From Candidatus Alcyoniella australis (GTDB lineage: Bacteria; Lernaellota; Lernaellaia; JAVCCG01; Alcyoniellaceae), in NCBI GenBank assembly GCA_030765605.1, contig JAVCCG010000032.1:1-7176 (forward strand): a stretch of 7,176 nt of DNA. Direction: 5' to 3'. A program made the translations under genes and the position numbers. The notes beneath the pieces were generated by a model. It worked only from the letters and a program-made list of their open reading frames with translations. It did not search any database and was not told where the DNA came from. Of the stretch, positions 858 to 6,823 are shown in pieces; position 1 is the first letter of the stretch, and each line of letters begins with the position of its first letter.

Positions 858-1313
858 TCAGCGGTCGGTGGTATCCCAGTCAAATGGGATTTTATCGGTG
901 TGCGCGGGCAGCCGGAACTCGTCGGGCTGATTGTGATCGTAGGCCATGGTCGGCACGTTGATTACAATCGCCTCTTTTTCGCCCAGGCCCTTGAACCCGT
1001 GGTACACGCCCTTGGGAATGCGCAGCAGGATCATGTTGTGCTCGCCCATCACCACCTGCTGGGTCTCGCCGTTGGTCGGCGAGTCCTCGCGCGTATCAAA
1101 GAGCCCCACGCGGATCATGCCGTGTACGCAGCAGAAGTGGTCGTCTTGCAGCTTGTGATAGTGCCAGGCCTTGACCACGCCGGGGTAGACCGTGGTGAAG
1201 TAGATTTGGCCGAATTGCTCGAACAGCTCGTCGTCGTTGCGCAGTATCTCGGCCAGCCGTCCGCGGTCGTCGGGATTAACTTTAATCGGTTTGATTGCCA
1301 CGCCGTGGATCAT
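858..1313 (-). CDS. RmlC-like cupin (dTDP-4-dehydrorhamnose 3,5-epimerase family), short form
   Basis: This 151-residue protein resembles the core cupin fold of the RmlC sugar-epimerase family, which epimerises dTDP-4-keto-6-deoxyglucose on the way to dTDP-rhamnose and other deoxysugars in the cytoplasm. Recognisable pieces are the early DDRGRLAEILRNDDE region (15-29), KAWHYHKLQ (48-56), which aligns with RGLHYQ so that His51 matches the catalytic His, a VHGMIRVGLFDTRE turn (63-76) and RIPKGVYHGF (98-107), which matches IPEGFAHGF. It is shorter than the usual roughly 180 residues, and the conserved Lys of the RmlC GKLV segment appears replaced (Asp58 or His59), so the exact reaction is uncertain. 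The ATG at 1313 is chosen because AGGAGA (1318-1323) precedes it and overlaps the rmlA stop; an in-frame upstream extension would lie inside rmlA. The 8-nt gap after rmlA indicates co-transcription and a shared role in activated-sugar supply. Confidence 0.78.
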   Translation of the reverse strand: MIHGVAIKPIKVNPDDRGRLAEILRNDDELFEQFGQIYFTTVYPGVVKAWHYHKLQDDHFCCVHGMIRVGLFDTREDSPTNGETQQVVMGEHNMILLRIPKGVYHGFKGLGEKEAIVINVPTMAYDHNQPDEFRLPAHTDKIPFDWDTTDR

Positions 1314-1321
1314 TTTATCTC

Positions 1322-2386
1322 CTAGAGGATTCCCACCAGGCTGCTGTCGCCGAGCATAAAGCGGTAGGCCTTGGGCTTGAGGTTGAGTTTCTGCACCTTG
1401 ACGTTCTGGCCGATCAGCGAGTCGGTGATCTGCACGTCGATGTCCAGCACCTGGCTGCACTCGAGCACGATCGAATGTTCGATCTCGCAGTTGCGAACCA
1501 CCGTGTCGTAGTAGATCGCGGTGAACGGACCGATAAAACTATTCTCGATCACCGCGTTGCGGCCGATGATCGCCGGGCCGCGGATCGTCGAGTTGACGAC
1601 CTTGGCCCCGGGCTCGATCACCACCTTGAACTCCACCGAGCTTTGCGCACAGACCTCGCCCTCGATGCGGGTCTTAAACGTGTCGAGCACCATGCGGTTG
1701 GCTTCGAGCATGTCCTCGAGCTTGCCGGTGTCCTTCCACCAGCCGGTGACCTCGTGGCTGATTACCTCGTAGCCCTGGTCGACCAACCATTGGATGGCGT
1801 CGGTGATCTCAAGTTCGCCGCGCGCGCTGGGCTTGATGGCCCGCGCCGCCTTAAACACGGTCTTGTCGAACATGTACACGCCCACCAGCGCCAGGTCCGA
1901 TTGCGGATCGGCGGGCTTCTCATCGAGACGCACCACGCGGCCGTGGTCGAGCTGGGCCACGCCGAACTGGCTGGGGTTGGGCACCTTGTGCAGCAGGATC
2001 TGCGAGTTGGGCTGCTTAGCCTTGAAATCGGCCACCAGCTCGGAGATGCCGCCCATGATTAAGTTGTCGCCCAAATACATCACGAAGGTGCTCTCGCCGA
2101 TGTACTCCTCGGCCGTGAGCACCGCGTGGGCCAATCCCAACGGCTGGTCCTGACGGATGTAGGTCACTTTGCAGCCGAACTTGGAGCCGTCGCCCACCGC
2201 GGCGCGAATCTCGTTCTCGGTGTCGCCGACGATGATCCCGATGTCGTCGATCCCGGCCCCAACGATTGCCTCGATGCCGTAAAACAGCACCGGCTTGTTG
2301 GCCACGGGCACCAGCTGCTTGGCGCTGGTGTGGGTGATCGGCCGCAGCCGCGTCCCCTTACCGCCGGAGAGGATTAGCCCCTTCAT
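1322..2386 (-). CDS. rmlA: Glucose-1-phosphate thymidylyltransferase, long form (RmlA/StrD type)
   Basis: The 354-residue product is a sugar-nucleotidyltransferase that would join dTTP and glucose-1-phosphate into dTDP-glucose, the first step towards dTDP-rhamnose and other deoxysugars. The N-terminal Rossmann-like catalytic domain (about 1-240) has GGKGTRLRPIT (8-18) for nucleotide binding, SAKQLVPVANKPV (21-33) with Lys23, LGDN (105-108) with the metal-binding Asp107, EKP (156-158), GELEITD (190-196) and WWKDTG (216-221). The C-terminal part (about 245-354) has hexapeptide-like IIGRNAVIENSFIG spacing of a left-handed beta-helix, which distinguishes the long form from the shorter roughly 290-residue RmlA. 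The start is ATG at 2386: GAGGAG (2392-2397) lies 5 nt upstream, whereas the in-frame GTG two codons earlier overlaps that site. It begins 9 nt after the SPOR gene and is followed after 8 nt by the RmlC-like gene. No rmlB or rmlD is in view, so the final sugar cannot be named. Confidence 0.93.
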   Translation of the reverse strand: MKGLILSGGKGTRLRPITHTSAKQLVPVANKPVLFYGIEAIVGAGIDDIGIIVGDTENEIRAAVGDGSKFGCKVTYIRQDQPLGLAHAVLTAEEYIGESTFVMYLGDNLIMGGISELVADFKAKQPNSQILLHKVPNPSQFGVAQLDHGRVVRLDEKPADPQSDLALVGVYMFDKTVFKAARAIKPSARGELEITDAIQWLVDQGYEVISHEVTGWWKDTGKLEDMLEANRMVLDTFKTRIEGEVCAQSSVEFKVVIEPGAKVVNSTIRGPAIIGRNAVIENSFIGPFTAIYYDTVVRNCEIEHSIVLECSQVLDIDVQITDSLIGQNVKVQKLNLKPKAYRFMLGDSSLVGIL

Positions 2387-2391
2387 CTGCA

Positions 2392-2397
2392 CTCCTC
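2392..2397 (-). promoter_or_regulatory. Ribosome binding site that fixes the rmlA start
   Basis: On the minus strand GAGGAG is followed by 5 nt and then ATG (2386-2384). It overlaps the TGA stop of the SPOR gene (2398-2396), so ribosomes finishing SPOR would already cover it. A GTG inside the site (2392-2390) is therefore an unlikely start. Confidence 0.7.
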
Positions 2398-3127
2398 AAT
2401 TAATTCGGGTTACGAACGCGTTGCGCCCCTCGGCCTGGGCGATCGCCTCGCGCATCTTCTCCGCGCCGTCCTGGTCCTCGAACTGGCCCACGCGCACACG
2501 ATAATAGATCCCCTTGCCCGAGATCTCGGCGCGCACCACGTAGGCCGGCCAGCCGTGATTTTTAAGCTTGAGCACGTCGGCGTCGGCTTGGCCGCGCTCC
2601 TGAAAACTGGCCACCTGCACGGTCCAATTGCCCGCATGCATCGGCGGGGAGTACGGGGTCGGCGCGGCCTCGGGCGTGGGCGCGGGCGTGGCCGCAACCT
2701 CGGGCGTTGCCGCGTCCGCGGGAGTTATCTCGGGCGTGGGCTCGACCGTAGGCGGCGGCTCAGTCCCGCCCGGACCGTCGAAGGTGTAGCGGATGCCGCC
2801 GACCTCGTCGGTTACGTTGCTCGGATCAAGCTCGGTGCTCGAAATGATTTTGGGCGTTTGTGCGGCCTCTGGCGTAGGTGTGGGCTCGGGCGTGGCCGCG
2901 GGCTCGATCTGCTCCCAGGGCGTGGGGGTAATCGCGGCCACGCCGCGGGTGGTCAGCTCGGGCCGCGGGGTGGGCACGCGCCGCACCTGTTCGAGGCGCG
3001 AGCCGACCTTAACTCCCAGATAGAACACGATCGCCAGCAGCACCAGGGAGCTGAGAAAGATCGCCGCGATCTGGCGGTTGTCCAGCTTGATTTCGACCTT
3101 GTCGCGGATCTTGCGCAGGTCACGCAT
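2396..3127 (-). CDS. Membrane-anchored SPOR-domain protein
   Basis: The 243-residue protein has a basic cytoplasmic N-terminus (1-19, rich in Lys and Arg), one transmembrane helix (about 20-42, AAIFLSSLVLLAIVFYLGV), a long Pro/Thr/Glu-rich linker (about 51-165, with many TPEP, TPTP and ATPE units) and a C-terminal SPOR domain (about 167-243: WTVQVASFQ, YYRVRVGQF, then an amphipathic helix and FVTRIN). This is the layout of FtsN- or DedD-like proteins: inner-membrane anchor, flexible periplasmic spacer, and a SPOR domain that binds denuded glycan strands at the division septum. Function in septal peptidoglycan remodelling is known for the family and inferred here; the sequence does not say which SPOR paralogue it is. 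The ATG at 3127 follows a G-rich AGGGGGGAAACC segment that can act as a ribosome binding site. It lies 39 nt after argS and 9 nt before rmlA, and I associate argS followed by a SPOR gene with deltaproteobacterial genomes. Confidence 0.9.
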   Translation of the reverse strand: MRDLRKIRDKVEIKLDNRQIAAIFLSSLVLLAIVFYLGVKVGSRLEQVRRVPTPRPELTTRGVAAITPTPWEQIEPAATPEPTPTPEAAQTPKIISSTELDPSNVTDEVGGIRYTFDGPGGTEPPPTVEPTPEITPADAATPEVAATPAPTPEAAPTPYSPPMHAGNWTVQVASFQERGQADADVLKLKNHGWPAYVVRAEISGKGIYYRVRVGQFEDQDGAEKMREAIAQAEGRNAFVTRIN

Positions 3128-3166: not shown

Positions 3167-4822
3167 TCACATCCTCTCAGGGGCTGAGACACCGATCAAG
3201 GCCAAGGCGTTCGCCGTGACCTGTTTGACCAGTTTGCACATCAACAGCCGCGCCGCGGTCAGCTCCGGATCGTCCGAGATGATCCGGTGTCCGGCGTACC
3301 ACGGATGGAACTGTCCGGCCAGGCTTTGCAGCCAGGCGGTGATGCGGTGCGGCTCAAGCTCGCGCGCGGCCGAGGCCACTGCGTCGGGCAGGCTGAGGAT
3401 CGTTTTTATCAGCTGCCGCTCGTCCGCGGTCTGCAACAGCCGCGGATCAACGTCCGCAACGCTCGGGATCGTCAGCCCGGCCTCGACGGCCTTGGCGAAC
3501 ACCGAGCAGATCCGCGCGTGCATGTACTGGATGTAGTACACCGGGTTGTCCAGGGTCTTCTTGACCGCCAGGTCGAGGTCGAAATCGAGGTGCGCGTCGT
3601 GACGGCGCGAGAGGATGATCGTGCGCGCCGCGTCCACGCCGACCTCGCTCACCACGTCGGCCAGGGTCTCGAACTCCCCGGAGCGCTTGCTCATTTTAAC
3701 TTCCTGCCCCTCGCGCATCAGCCGCACCATCTGGATCAGCATTACCTGGAAGTCGTCCGGATCGTGCCCCAACGCGGCGCAGGCCGAGCGCATGCGCGGT
3801 ACGTAGCCGTGATGGTCCGCGCCCCAGACGTCGATCAGCCGGTCGAAGCCGCGCTCGAACTTGTCGCGGTGATAGGCGATGTCCGAGGCGAAGTAGGTGC
3901 GGCTGCCGTCGGACTTGGTCACCACCCGGTCTTTATCGTCGCCCCAGCGGGTCGAGGCGAACCACTTGGCGCCGTCCTGGTCGAACATGTGCCCGTGCTG
4001 CTCCAGATCGCCAAGGGCCCGGTCGACCTCTCCGGCCTCAACCATTGTGCGTTCGGAACTCCAGACGTCGATCGGCACGCGGAACTGCTCCAGGTCGTCC
4101 TTGATCCGCTGCAACAGCCGGTCCGCGGCCCAACGCGCCACAGCGTCGAGCTCGTCGTCGGTCGGCGGAAAGCTCTCGCGCTGTTCGCGCAGCTGCTTGG
4201 CCAGTTCGATGACGTACTCGCCGTGGTACATATCCTGGTCCAGCTCAATCTGCTCTCCGGCGAGCTCGCGGCAGCGCGCGAGCATCGTGCGCCCCAGGTT
4301 GCGAATCTGGACGCCGGTGTCGTTGACGTAGTACTCACGCACCACATCGTAACCCGCGGCCTCGAGCACCCGCGCCGCAGCGTCGCCCACTGCCGCGTTG
4401 CGGCCGTGCCCCACATGCAGCGGGCCGGTGGGGTTGGCGCTGACGAACTCGATGTTGACCTTGAGCCCCTTGCCCAGGTCGATGCGTCCGAAACCCGCGC
4501 CCGCGGCCTCCAGGGCCGTGAGCTGCTCGGCCAGGGCGTCGCGGGCCGTGAACAGGTTGATGAACCCCGCGCCCGCAACCTCGGCGCGCCGCAGCAGCGC
4601 GTTGTCCGGCAGATGATCGATGATCGATTGCGCCACATCGCGCGGCGCGCGCCGGGCCTGCTTGGCGAGCTTGAACGCCACGTTGCAGCTCAGGTCGCCG
4701 AACCCGGCCTCCTTGGGCACGCTGATCTCCCACTGCGGCGTATCGCCTGGGGGCAGCGATTCATCTTGTTGCGCGGCGGCGATCGCAGCGTTGATCAGCT
4801 TGACGACCTCAGTCTTCATCAT
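3167..4822 (-). CDS. argS: Arginyl-tRNA synthetase
   Basis: This class I aminoacyl-tRNA synthetase charges tRNA-Arg with arginine in the cytoplasm. The 551 residues match the usual length. Visible parts are the N-terminal additional domain with PKEAGFGDLSCNVAF (36-50), the HIGH-type motif in NPTGPLHVGHGRN (130-142), YYVNDTGVQIRNLG (164-177), DVWGADHHGYVPRM (331-344), the KMSKS-type loop KMSKR (376-380) and the C-terminal helical DALR anticodon-binding domain beginning near DNPVYYIQYMHARI (425-438). All catalytic motifs are intact, so it should be functional and essential. The start region has two consecutive ATG codons (4822 and 4819); the first overlaps the end of the upstream CX2C gene by 14 nt. 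The preceding GGGG is a poor ribosome binding site, which suggests translational coupling to the small gene. The SPOR gene follows after 39 nt. Confidence 0.97.
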   Translation of the reverse strand: MMKTEVVKLINAAIAAAQQDESLPPGDTPQWEISVPKEAGFGDLSCNVAFKLAKQARRAPRDVAQSIIDHLPDNALLRRAEVAGAGFINLFTARDALAEQLTALEAAGAGFGRIDLGKGLKVNIEFVSANPTGPLHVGHGRNAAVGDAAARVLEAAGYDVVREYYVNDTGVQIRNLGRTMLARCRELAGEQIELDQDMYHGEYVIELAKQLREQRESFPPTDDELDAVARWAADRLLQRIKDDLEQFRVPIDVWSSERTMVEAGEVDRALGDLEQHGHMFDQDGAKWFASTRWGDDKDRVVTKSDGSRTYFASDIAYHRDKFERGFDRLIDVWGADHHGYVPRMRSACAALGHDPDDFQVMLIQMVRLMREGQEVKMSKRSGEFETLADVVSEVGVDAARTIILSRRHDAHLDFDLDLAVKKTLDNPVYYIQYMHARICSVFAKAVEAGLTIPSVADVDPRLLQTADERQLIKTILSLPDAVASAARELEPHRITAWLQSLAGQFHPWYAGHRIISDDPELTAARLLMCKLVKQVTANALALIGVSAPERM

Positions 4823-5012
4823 CGCCCCAGGCGGGCAGGCCGCGATGGCGCGGATCGTCGGGCTTGGGCTCGCCGGTCTGCTCGGGTTCGGCGATTGTCA
4901 CGTCGCGGCTGTAGTCCGGGCAGCGCAGCTTGTTCTTTTCGACGTTGAAGCGCTTGGCGCAGGTGCCGCGCCAGGCGCAAAGGGCGCAGATGGTTCTTGC
5001 ATCGAGGGTCAT
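4809..5012 (-). CDS. Small four-cysteine protein (CX2C-X5-C-X12-C), function unknown
   Basis: This 67-residue protein has Cys9, Cys12, Cys18 and Cys31 in the pattern CX2C-X5-C-X12-C, within ICALCAWRGTCAKRF (8-22) and LRCPDYSRDV (29-38). The tail (about 40-67) is acidic and Pro-rich, ending in WGDDED, and is probably disordered. Four clustered cysteines suggest a structural zinc site or, less likely, an iron-sulfur cluster; no enzymatic motif is visible. I loosely recall similar short cysteine proteins with a CPDY/F-S/T-RD ending in deltaproteobacterial genomes, but cannot name a family. It is likely real: its ATG overlaps the nitrilase-gene stop as ATGA, AGGAG lies about 9 nt upstream, and its end overlaps argS by 14 nt. 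No signal peptide is seen, so it is probably cytoplasmic. Its position between two coupled genes may serve to couple their translation as well as to make a protein. Confidence 0.8.
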   Translation of the reverse strand: MTLDARTICALCAWRGTCAKRFNVEKNKLRCPDYSRDVTIAEPEQTGEPKPDDPRHRGLPAWGDDED

Positions 5013-5869
5013 TCGGGGGGCTCCTGATCCTGGTTATCGCAGATCGCGGCGTACTGGTCGGGGCGGCGGTCGCGCAGCAGCGGGAACTCGCGCCGGATCA
5101 GCACCAGCGCCTCGCGGTGCAGCTCGCCGAGCATCAGCCCCTCGGCCTCACCCGCCTCCTGCCCCGCCAGATCGCCGTAGGGGTCGACCAGAAAGCTGCG
5201 ACCGTAGAAGTGTTGCTCGGGCGCGCCGCCCACGCGGTTGACCCGCAGCACGTACACGCCGTTGAACAGCGCGTTGGCCGAGATCGCACGCAGCCACAGA
5301 TCGTGGCTCTCGCCGCAGTTGGCCGTGGGCGCCACGATCAGCTCCGCTCCGGCCAGGGCCAATGCGCGGCAGCCCTCGGGAAACAGGTTGTCCCACGCGA
5401 CCTGGACCCCGACCCGCAGTCCGGCCAGCTGGGCCAGCACAAAGCCGTTGTCCCCGGCGCTGAAGTAGTGCCGCTCCTCCCAGCGCGGAAGCTGGGGCAC
5501 GTGCAGCTTGCGATACACGCCGCGAACCTCGCCGTGCTCATCGATCAACGCGGTGGAGTTGTAGCAGCGCTCGCCGTCGCGCTCGAAAAACGGAAAGACC
5601 ACGGCCACGCCGCGCTGCTGCGCGGCCTCGCGGATCGCGCTGATGGCCGGGCCGTCCAGCGGCTGGGCCAGCTCGAATCCGCGCTCATCGATCTGCGCCG
5701 GAAACCACGGCAGATGCGCCAGCTCGGGAAAGCAGGCCAGGTTCACGCCCTGGTCCGCGGCCACGTTGATCAGCTCGACGCAGCGTTCGATGTTGGCCTG
5801 CGGATCGGGCCCCGGCCCGACCTGGATCGCGGCCACTGTCTTGGATTTGGATGCGTTTTCGTTGATCAT
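5009..5869 (-). CDS. Nitrilase-superfamily protein lacking the catalytic cysteine (N-carbamoylputrescine amidase-like)
   Basis: The 286-residue protein has the complete carbon-nitrogen hydrolase fold and resembles N-carbamoylputrescine amidases: FPELAHLPWF (48-57) with Glu49, VYRKLHVPQ (118-126) with Lys121, ERHYFSAGD (132-140) with the second Glu at 132, DNLFPEG (160-166), AGAELIVAPTA (173-183), VNRVGG (210-215), a GRSFLVDPYGD block (223-233) and the family ending PLLRDRRPDQYAAI (263-276). In active members the nucleophile is in a CWD or CYD motif before FPE; here residues 158-160 read AWD with codon GCG. All three bases differ from TGC, so a single sequencing error cannot explain it. Cys167 and Cys185 lie elsewhere and do not obviously substitute. 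The protein is therefore probably not a normal amidase. The ATG at 5869 abuts the upstream stop without a gap and has only a weak ribosome binding site; the downstream gene overlaps as ATGA. The family assignment is firm, the lack of activity is an inference. Confidence 0.9.
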   Translation of the reverse strand: MINENASKSKTVAAIQVGPGPDPQANIERCVELINVAADQGVNLACFPELAHLPWFPAQIDERGFELAQPLDGPAISAIREAAQQRGVAVVFPFFERDGERCYNSTALIDEHGEVRGVYRKLHVPQLPRWEERHYFSAGDNGFVLAQLAGLRVGVQVAWDNLFPEGCRALALAGAELIVAPTANCGESHDLWLRAISANALFNGVYVLRVNRVGGAPEQHFYGRSFLVDPYGDLAGQEAGEAEGLMLGELHREALVLIRREFPLLRDRRPDQYAAICDNQDQEPPE

Positions 5870-6631
5870 CTACTGCAAAGTCCGGGTGATAAATTCCACG
5901 AGCCGCGCGAACAGCTCGGGACGGTTTTGTAACAGGCGCGTGCCGTGCCCGCCAGCGGGGTAAAGCAGCAGCTCCGCGTCCACCTGCGCCGACTCCTTGA
6001 GTCGCTGCACCGTGCGCGCCGAATACTCGTCGTCCTGCGCCGCGGCCAACAACAAACGGCAATCGCGCAACTCGGTCACGGCCCCCTGGGTGGTCAGGCC
6101 GCGATAATCAAGCCCCGGCGAGAGCAGCGCCAGGCCCCGCACCCCGCCGTGTTGCGCAGTGTAAACCAGCGCGGCGTTGGCCCCGATGCTGGCCCCGACG
6201 ATCATTACGGCGTTGCCCTGGATCATCGGATGCTCGGTCATGAAGCTGCGTGCGGCGCGCACGTCCAGCAGCATGCCCGCGAAATCATCATTCGTGAACC
6301 GGCGATAATCCAGCTCGGCCGGATGCTCGCCGATGCGTTGCGTGGACTCGCCGTGGCCGCGCAGATCGATGGCCAAACAGGCGATGCCGCGCGCTCCCAG
6401 CTCGCGGGCCAGGGCCTGAAAATCGCTGCGGGAGCGGCCCATCATGTGCAGCAACAGTGCGCCGGGCTGCGCCTGCTCGCCTGATTGATACAGCGTGCCC
6501 ACCAGCACCACCTGGTCCGAGGTGACGATTTTGACGGTCGAGCCCACGGGCCCATCGCCCTGCGCCGCAAGCGGCGCAGCAATCACCAGCAGCGCGCACA
6601 GCGCTGTAATCAGCAGAATGGACCGTTTCAT
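5870..6631 (-). CDS. Secreted alpha/beta-hydrolase fold protein
   Basis: The 253-residue product starts with a Sec signal peptide (MKRS, hydrophobic stretch 5-19, probable cleavage after LAA at 21-23), so it should act in the periplasm or outside the cell. The mature part is a single alpha/beta-hydrolase domain: HMMG (62-65) for the oxyanion-hole loop, AIDLRGHGES (87-96), the nucleophile elbow VGASIGA (145-151) with Ser148 in GASIG, AAAQDDEYS (196-204) with the acid Asp200 or Asp201, and PAGGHG (225-230) with His229. The triad is complete, so an esterase, lipase or peptidase-like activity is plausible, but the substrate cannot be read from the sequence. The ATG at 6631 is preceded by GAGGAG five nucleotides upstream and by a good promoter. 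It is the first gene of the minus-strand run, and the nitrilase-family gene begins at the very next base after its stop. Confidence 0.9.
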   Translation of the reverse strand: MKRSILLITALCALLVIAAPLAAQGDGPVGSTVKIVTSDQVVLVGTLYQSGEQAQPGALLLHMMGRSRSDFQALARELGARGIACLAIDLRGHGESTQRIGEHPAELDYRRFTNDDFAGMLLDVRAARSFMTEHPMIQGNAVMIVGASIGANAALVYTAQHGGVRGLALLSPGLDYRGLTTQGAVTELRDCRLLLAAAQDDEYSARTVQRLKESAQVDAELLLYPAGGHGTRLLQNRPELFARLVEFITRTLQ

Positions 6632-6654
6632 CGCGTCTCCTCAGAGCGGATCGT

Positions 6655-6683
6655 ATCCTATAACGCGTCCTATGGAGCGTCAA
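6655..6683 (-). promoter_or_regulatory. Sigma70-type promoter for the hydrolase-argS-rmlA run
   Basis: On the minus strand TTGACG (6683-6678) matches the -35 consensus at five of six positions. It is followed by 17 bp and TAGGAT (6660-6655), a four-of-six -10 element. Transcription would start near 6648, leaving a leader of about 16 nt that contains the GAGGAG ribosome binding site of the hydrolase gene. The -35 lies next to the tandem repeat that begins at 6686. Confidence 0.65.
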
Positions 6684-6685
6684 TT

Positions 6686-6741
6686 GGCAGCTTCAAGCCG
6701 CAGCATGGCACGCGGCAGCTTGGAGCTGCGGCATGGCACGC
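6686..6741. repeat. Two tandem copies of a 28-bp hairpin-forming repeat
   Basis: Units 6686-6713 and 6714-6741 are adjacent and agree at 24 of 28 positions; both begin GGCAGCTT and end GCATGGCACGC. The second contains a perfect stem GCAGCT-tgg-AGCTGC (6715-6729). The first can form the same stem with one A-C mismatch that the second copy turns into an A-T pair, so the ability to fold is kept. Confidence 0.75.
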
Positions 6742-6823
6742 GAGCGGACCAGGGTCGTCGCTCCACGACCCTCCCCGCGCCCGGCTTTGAGCCGGGGGCA
6801 AGGCTCGCGTAGTTCGCTGGTCC
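6738..6823. repeat. Compound palindromic element with interleaved stems
   Basis: Four perfect pairings occur here. ACGCGAGC (6738-6745) pairs with GCTCGCGT (6803-6810), GGACCAG (6746-6752) with CTGGTCC (6817-6823), GGGTCGT (6752-6758) with ACGACCC (6765-6771) around a 6-nt loop, and CCCGGC (6780-6785) with GCCGGG (6791-6796) around a 5-nt loop. The first two pairs are in A-B-A'-B' order, so they are mutually exclusive or form a pseudoknot. Confidence 0.6.

Follow-up and report, generated by a model that had tools for sequence, protein, structure and literature searches.

A conserved nitrilase subfamily with a repeatedly broken catalytic triad, a probable pseudoenzyme clade within a known superfamily

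Introduction

The nearest described system to the protein reported here is MtCPA, the N-carbamoylputrescine amidohydrolase of Medicago (AguB/CPA; TIGR03381; PDB 5h8i-5h8l). In this enzyme Cys158 works with Glu48 and Lys121, and the crystal of its C158S mutant contains bound putrescine (PMC4812014). Nitrilases form helical oligomers, and in MtCPA neighbouring subunits supply walls of the active site (PMC4812014); heteromeric NIT4 complexes are found in sorghum (PMC5154151). Mutants of other amidases of the same fold, namely C145A and E41Q/C145A of the Nesterenkonia amidase (5ny7, 4izv) and C171A of D-carbamoylase (8hpc), hold ligands according to the titles of their structures.

The window analysed here is a stretch of 7,176 nucleotides from Candidatus Alcyoniella australis, whose genome is a draft of 157 contigs. 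Its nitrilase-like protein shares with MtCPA the fold and register (TM 0.90, about 32% identity), Glu49/Lys121/Glu132 (window numbering), Pro125 and Trp159. It differs in having Ala158 (Cys158 in MtCPA), Trp55 (Tyr54), Trp130 (Tyr130), Asn161 (Gln161) and Leu162 (Trp162), and a shorter loop after residue 184. Ala158 is a lesion of the same kind as the engineered C158S, and the subfamily of the window protein carries Cys-to-Ala and Glu-to-Gln changes like those of the amidase trap mutants. The trap mutants were engineered, whereas the changes in the subfamily are natural and conserved.

Pseudoenzymes are usually viewed as single lineages in which activity was lost once; here about 16 separate losses at three catalytic residues were found. 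Neither a description of a disarmed nitrilase subfamily nor anything relevant on nitrilase pseudoenzymes or a link to argS was found in the open-access literature searched.

Results

The window protein keeps a predicted nitrilase fold without the nucleophile

The reading frame encodes a complete protein of 286 residues without internal stops (Table 1). Its match to PF00795 (CN_hydrolase) scores 170.2 bits against a curated cut-off of 23.2 (6.7e-50) and runs over residues 11-258, almost the full length, which places the protein in the nitrilase superfamily. The AF2 model is predicted with a mean pLDDT of 95.4. When this model was searched with Foldseek, the best matches were structures of MtCPA, including C158S with putrescine, and the matches also included other amidases crystallised with ligand as C-to-A or E-to-Q mutants. 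The top PDB match by sequence was 5h8k, the engineered C158S mutant. The score against TIGR03381, the best-scoring AguB model, was 203.5 bits, about half of the equivalog cut-off (410.25), so "AguB-like" is used here for similarity and not for identity of function. The nucleophilic Cys of AguB is absent, and several positions of its substrate pocket deviate (residues from PMC4812014).

Alignment to 5h8i confirmed the observation of an earlier sequence-only reading that Ala158 (GCG) stands in place of the catalytic Cys while Glu49, Lys121 and Glu132 are kept. The Glu-Lys-Cys triad is thus incomplete, and the protein is an enzyme homologue that lacks an essential catalytic residue, as expected of a pseudoenzyme. 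From these residues we infer that the window protein has probably lost hydrolysis. The same reading had noted that GCG differs from TGC at all three bases. This is correct, but a direct origin from TGC is not required. One base change turns GGG, or the Ser codon TCG, into GCG, and an earlier loss of the Cys via Gly or Ser is therefore possible. The Gly codons of the syntenic orthologues (GGC, GGG and GGC) are one or two steps from GCG.

Table 1. Coordinates of features in the window
Feature	Position	Strand	Basis or remark
rmlA	1322..2392	-	good match
SPOR-domain protein	2396..3127	-	PF05036; also downstream of orthologues
argS, arginyl-tRNA synthetase, 551 aa	3167..4822	-	TIGR00456 442.7 bits, above cut-off
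67-aa four-Cys protein, C-x2-C-A-W-R-x2-C-x-K-R-F...C-x-D	4809..5012	-	starts within nitrilase-like gene stop; overlaps argS
Nitrilase-fold protein, 286 aa, without catalytic Cys	5009..5869	-	ORF; PF00795 170 bits; AF2 model; Foldseek
Ala158 codon GCG, nucleophile position, AWD replacing CWD	5396..5398	-	sequence; alignment to Cys158 of 5h8i
Glu132, second active-site glutamate, kept	5474..5476	-	sequence and alignment
Lys121, triad lysine, kept	5507..5509	-	sequence and alignment
Glu49, triad general base, kept	5723..5725	-	sequence and alignment
Alpha/beta-hydrolase-fold protein, directly upstream of nitrilase-like gene	5870..6631	-	PF12146/PF12697; same place in G002, G004, G006
Sigma-70-like promoter match ahead of hydrolase gene	6655..6683	-	pattern match only

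On the minus strand the gene is part of a close-packed run of genes, in the order alpha/beta-hydrolase, nitrilase-like gene, 67-aa four-Cys ORF, argS, SPOR-domain gene and rmlA, which agrees with the earlier description of an intact, operonic frame. The hydrolase gene stops at 5870, adjoining the nitrilase-like gene (5869). The stop of the latter overlaps the next start in ATGA (5012-5009), and the CX2C ORF (5012-4809) in turn overlaps the start of argS at 4822. Elsewhere in the genome there are three further CN_hydrolase matches. One of them (C110) is of the nitrilase type, has all triad residues and shares only 33% identity with the window protein; judged by their alignments, the other two look like apolipoprotein N-acyltransferase and glutamine-dependent NAD synthetase.

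The triad is incomplete throughout the phylum of the window

The gene was found in all seven genomes representing the phylum of the window, and none of the seven copies has a full triad. The window protein groups with its phylum-mates in the tree (SH-aLRT 96), and it has no close relative, the best identity being 47-49%. The nearest syntenic orthologues, in G002, G004 and G006, carry Gly at position 158. All three have the hydrolase gene upstream and the SPOR-domain gene downstream, and rmlA is also present in G002 and G004. In G001, G003 and G005, Cys158 is kept and Lys121 is replaced by Gly, Ser or Ala. The expectation that orthologues are consistently non-Cys at this residue therefore holds for the nearest syntenic ones but fails for these three, in which the missing residue is Lys121. 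Close orthologues with Cys, which with relaxed selection in this copy would have spoken against the earlier interpretation, were not seen among the nearest syntenic genes.

The three genomes that lose Lys121 also have a second, AguB-like nitrilase with both Cys158 and Lys121 (L047, L048 and L049 in G003, G001 and G005, respectively). In G005 the N-terminus of the subfamily member itself (L044; C7, about 5933-6785, minus strand) is split over two overlapping frames by a frameshift or an assembly error.

About half of the sampled subfamily has a broken triad

The window protein belongs to a sharply bounded subfamily, defined by profile scores above about 325 bits, which set it apart from AguB-like and other nitrilases. 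It occurs, usually as one copy per genome, in the phylum of the window, Desulfobacterota, Nitrospirota and Tectomicrobia. Matches above threshold were present in 98 of 395 genomes evenly drawn from the phylum of G063 and in 35 of 295 sampled from Nitrospirota; some AguB-like matches near 290 bits are counted in both, so for the subfamily both figures are to be read as upper estimates. The gene was found in 22 of 23 genomes of the class of G066.

Among 128 members with a readable triad, 65 are broken, with one catalytic residue missing, and 63 are intact; the fetched members are a non-random sample, and the proportion of 50% holds for this set. The broken ones comprise 22 with Gln49, 3 with Pro49, 22 with Ser158 (one of them also Thr121), 14 with Gly158, 1 with Ala158 and 3 altered at Lys121, alone or together with Glu132. 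Exactly one of E49, K121 and C158 is changed in 64 of the 65. Replacement of Glu49 by Gln or Pro (PQLF/PPLF) was seen, for example, in L065, L138, L142-L150, L175, L181, L195 and L204, always with Cys158 kept; judged by its residues, this is a separate route to a broken triad. All Syntrophia members have the complete triad. These intact proteins (L055-L064) are like the window protein in identity (43-45%), pocket tryptophans and the short loop, but they carry the full E-K-E-C and precede lepB instead of argS.

The outgroup consisted of 45 nitrilases, all with Glu49 and Cys158 and all but one with Lys121, and an independent set of 30 from another phylum, all intact. E, K and C were thus all kept in 74 of 75 readable outgroup proteins, the exception having Met for Lys. 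None of the 75 lacks Cys or Glu. The earlier reading had called an intact Cys-less nitrilase homologue unusual, but the window protein is not an isolated case; its subfamily holds many broken triads at various residues.

A search for viral homologues of the nitrilase-like protein found none. Two Archaeoglobaceae loci (L078 and L079; match 6001-6573) encode distant nitrilase-like proteins with CSE for CWD and only 27% identity. An apparent nitrilase fusion in 565-aa frames of L211, L212 and L214 was rejected on inspection, since the N-terminal half looks like a GC-rich non-coding frame.

The triad was lost many times and the broken members remain under selection

With the trait columns left out of tree building and AguB-like proteins as the root, 16 maximal clades consist only of broken members. 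The number holds for the best tree and should not be taken as a strict minimum, because deep branches are weakly supported and the well-supported branches alone force fewer changes. By position, the tree needs at least 11 changes at 158, eight at 49 and four at 121. One large and old clade, of 13 tree rows, is made up of Ser variants. Against 16 first losses per about 20.6 branch units, only one second-site triad loss (K121T, L191) was found per about 15.7 units within broken clades. Second losses thus look rarer than first ones, although the comparison is rough and indicative, as some broken clades mix lesion types.

The columns conserved at 90% or more in the outgroup were then compared with the subfamily. 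C158 is the most released (kept in 71%), followed by E49 (80%), and these two are the only fully invariant outgroup columns that are clearly released. E69 (79%) and A83 (85%) also vary and are less strict in the outgroup; the rest are kept at 96% or more. The pocket residues W55, W159, D160 and W192 are invariant across broken and intact members.

The median pairwise omega was 0.098 for broken-broken pairs (30 pairs, mostly 0.05-0.2) and 0.081 for intact pairs (75 pairs). The broken members are under purifying selection. This result, together with the conservation of the remaining sites, supports the selection rather than decay proposed from the single sequence. The value was obtained from broken members across the subfamily, and maintenance of the window gene by selection is read indirectly from its intact frame and conserved sites. 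The conserved pocket, the low omega and the single-residue lesions are less readily explained by decay than by a pocket that stayed in use once catalysis was lost.

No shared cysteine takes the place of Cys158

Cys167 and Cys185 of the window protein had been put forward as possible substitutes for the nucleophile. Neither is conserved in the subfamily, no substitute Cys is shared by its members, and the Gly158 members have no Cys near 167/185 and lack Cys184. Both residues were therefore rejected as replacement nucleophiles. Most Ser158 members (L066, L067, L068, L172, L177, L182, L190 and others) have a Cys at 184 (PTACAF), which is rare in intact members and common only in the Ser clade. 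By its position in the alignment, it is possibly a displaced thiol or a compensation.

argS and the four-Cys gene often accompany the nitrilase-like gene

Among the broken members, 46 of 65 have argS downstream of the nitrilase-like gene and 26 have the four-Cys gene there; among the intact ones the counts are 25 of 59 and 7. This linkage suggests a common context and is no proof of a common function; the tie to argS is not found throughout and may be a matter of operon history alone.

Homologues of the four-Cys gene were found in 137 of the 395 sampled genomes, more widely than the nitrilase-like gene. It stands directly before argS in genomes with the nitrilase-like gene and in others without it, and precedes argS in 5 of 6 examined loci of the latter kind. 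The motif C-x2-C-A-W-R-x2-C-x-K-R/K-F...C-x-D is conserved across the family. No family match was obtained for the protein in Pfam and NCBIfam, and its predicted model has low confidence (pLDDT 50). It is apparently an undescribed family of small proteins linked to argS.

Proposed function of the broken-triad proteins

Taken together, these observations point to a conserved pseudoenzyme, a ligand-binding protein in which the amidase fold and its ligand pocket are preserved and Cys-dependent hydrolysis is lost; we give this reading a probability of roughly two in three. The ancestor of the subfamily was probably a working amidase. Its descendants would have been disarmed repeatedly by one triad change (C to A/S/G, E to Q/P, or loss of K), and such changes resemble the substrate-trap mutations made by crystallographers in the nitrilase fold. 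The kept Glu/Lys/Trp pocket has most likely remained a binding site for a small ligand of the amide, carbamoyl or amine type. The disarmed protein may then serve as a subunit for binding, sensing or scaffolding, perhaps with its operon products, the four-Cys protein and ArgS; the ligand class and the functional tie to ArgS are conjecture. In a more specific form of this idea, loss of hydrolysis was itself selected while binding was kept, and the protein is a natural substrate-trap sensor that evolved repeatedly, sensing a metabolite related to arginine or polyamines and adjusting arginyl-tRNA synthetase with its four-Cys partner. We regard this form as unlikely.

An altered or weakened enzyme is one alternative. 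The complete triad is present in about half of the members, among them all of Syntrophia; the shared function may therefore be enzymatic and the broken members slow rather than dead. Pocket chemistry without Cys158 could then rest on Ser as the nucleophile, on a water molecule activated by Glu49/Lys121 or on a step other than hydrolysis, and the chemistry would vary across the subfamily. The size and age of the Ser clade, the Cys184 common to many of its proteins, and the near-constant retention of the other triad residues after the first loss are all in keeping with it. However, the losses fall on three residues, Lys121 and Glu49 among them, which no single alternative mechanism fits; Gly and Ala are incapable as nucleophiles, and the Gly members do not have Cys184. 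We therefore consider an altered enzyme unlikely. It is quite unlikely that the disarmed protein is a non-catalytic subunit which joins a working paralogue of the nitrilase family and influences the assembly or the specificity of that partner. The neighbour-built active sites of MtCPA (PMC4812014) and the NIT4 complexes of sorghum (PMC5154151) provide precedents, and the C110 protein would be an intact candidate partner, but it is distant in sequence, no paralogue gene is adjacent, and a partner shared by all genomes was not found. A decaying gene, or an error of assembly or sequencing, would account for the absent catalytic residue in a draft genome, yet it is most improbable: the frame is intact in a tight operon, GCG differs from TGC at every base, three further genomes of the phylum have Gly at this position, many others have Ser or Gly there, and omega is low in broken clades.

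For the conserved, serially disarmed subfamily, the best description is a pseudoenzyme clade within a known superfamily. With intact sisters that share its pocket, it offers a test of what selection preserves once catalysis is dropped, and comparison of the natural trap variants with active relatives could reveal the ligand. If this reading is true, about half of these genes in Desulfobacterota and related phyla are misleadingly described by automated labels such as "nitrilase" or "N-carbamoylputrescine amidase".

Other features of the window

A GC-rich inverted sequence is located at 6781-6800, near the sigma-70-like match (minus strand). At the other end of the gene string, an ORF at 858-1460 (minus strand) overlaps the end of rmlA and resembles dTDP-4-dehydrorhamnose 3,5-epimerase, with 40 bits against an rmlC cut-off of 156; the suggested reading is a divergent epimerase or cupin beside rmlA.
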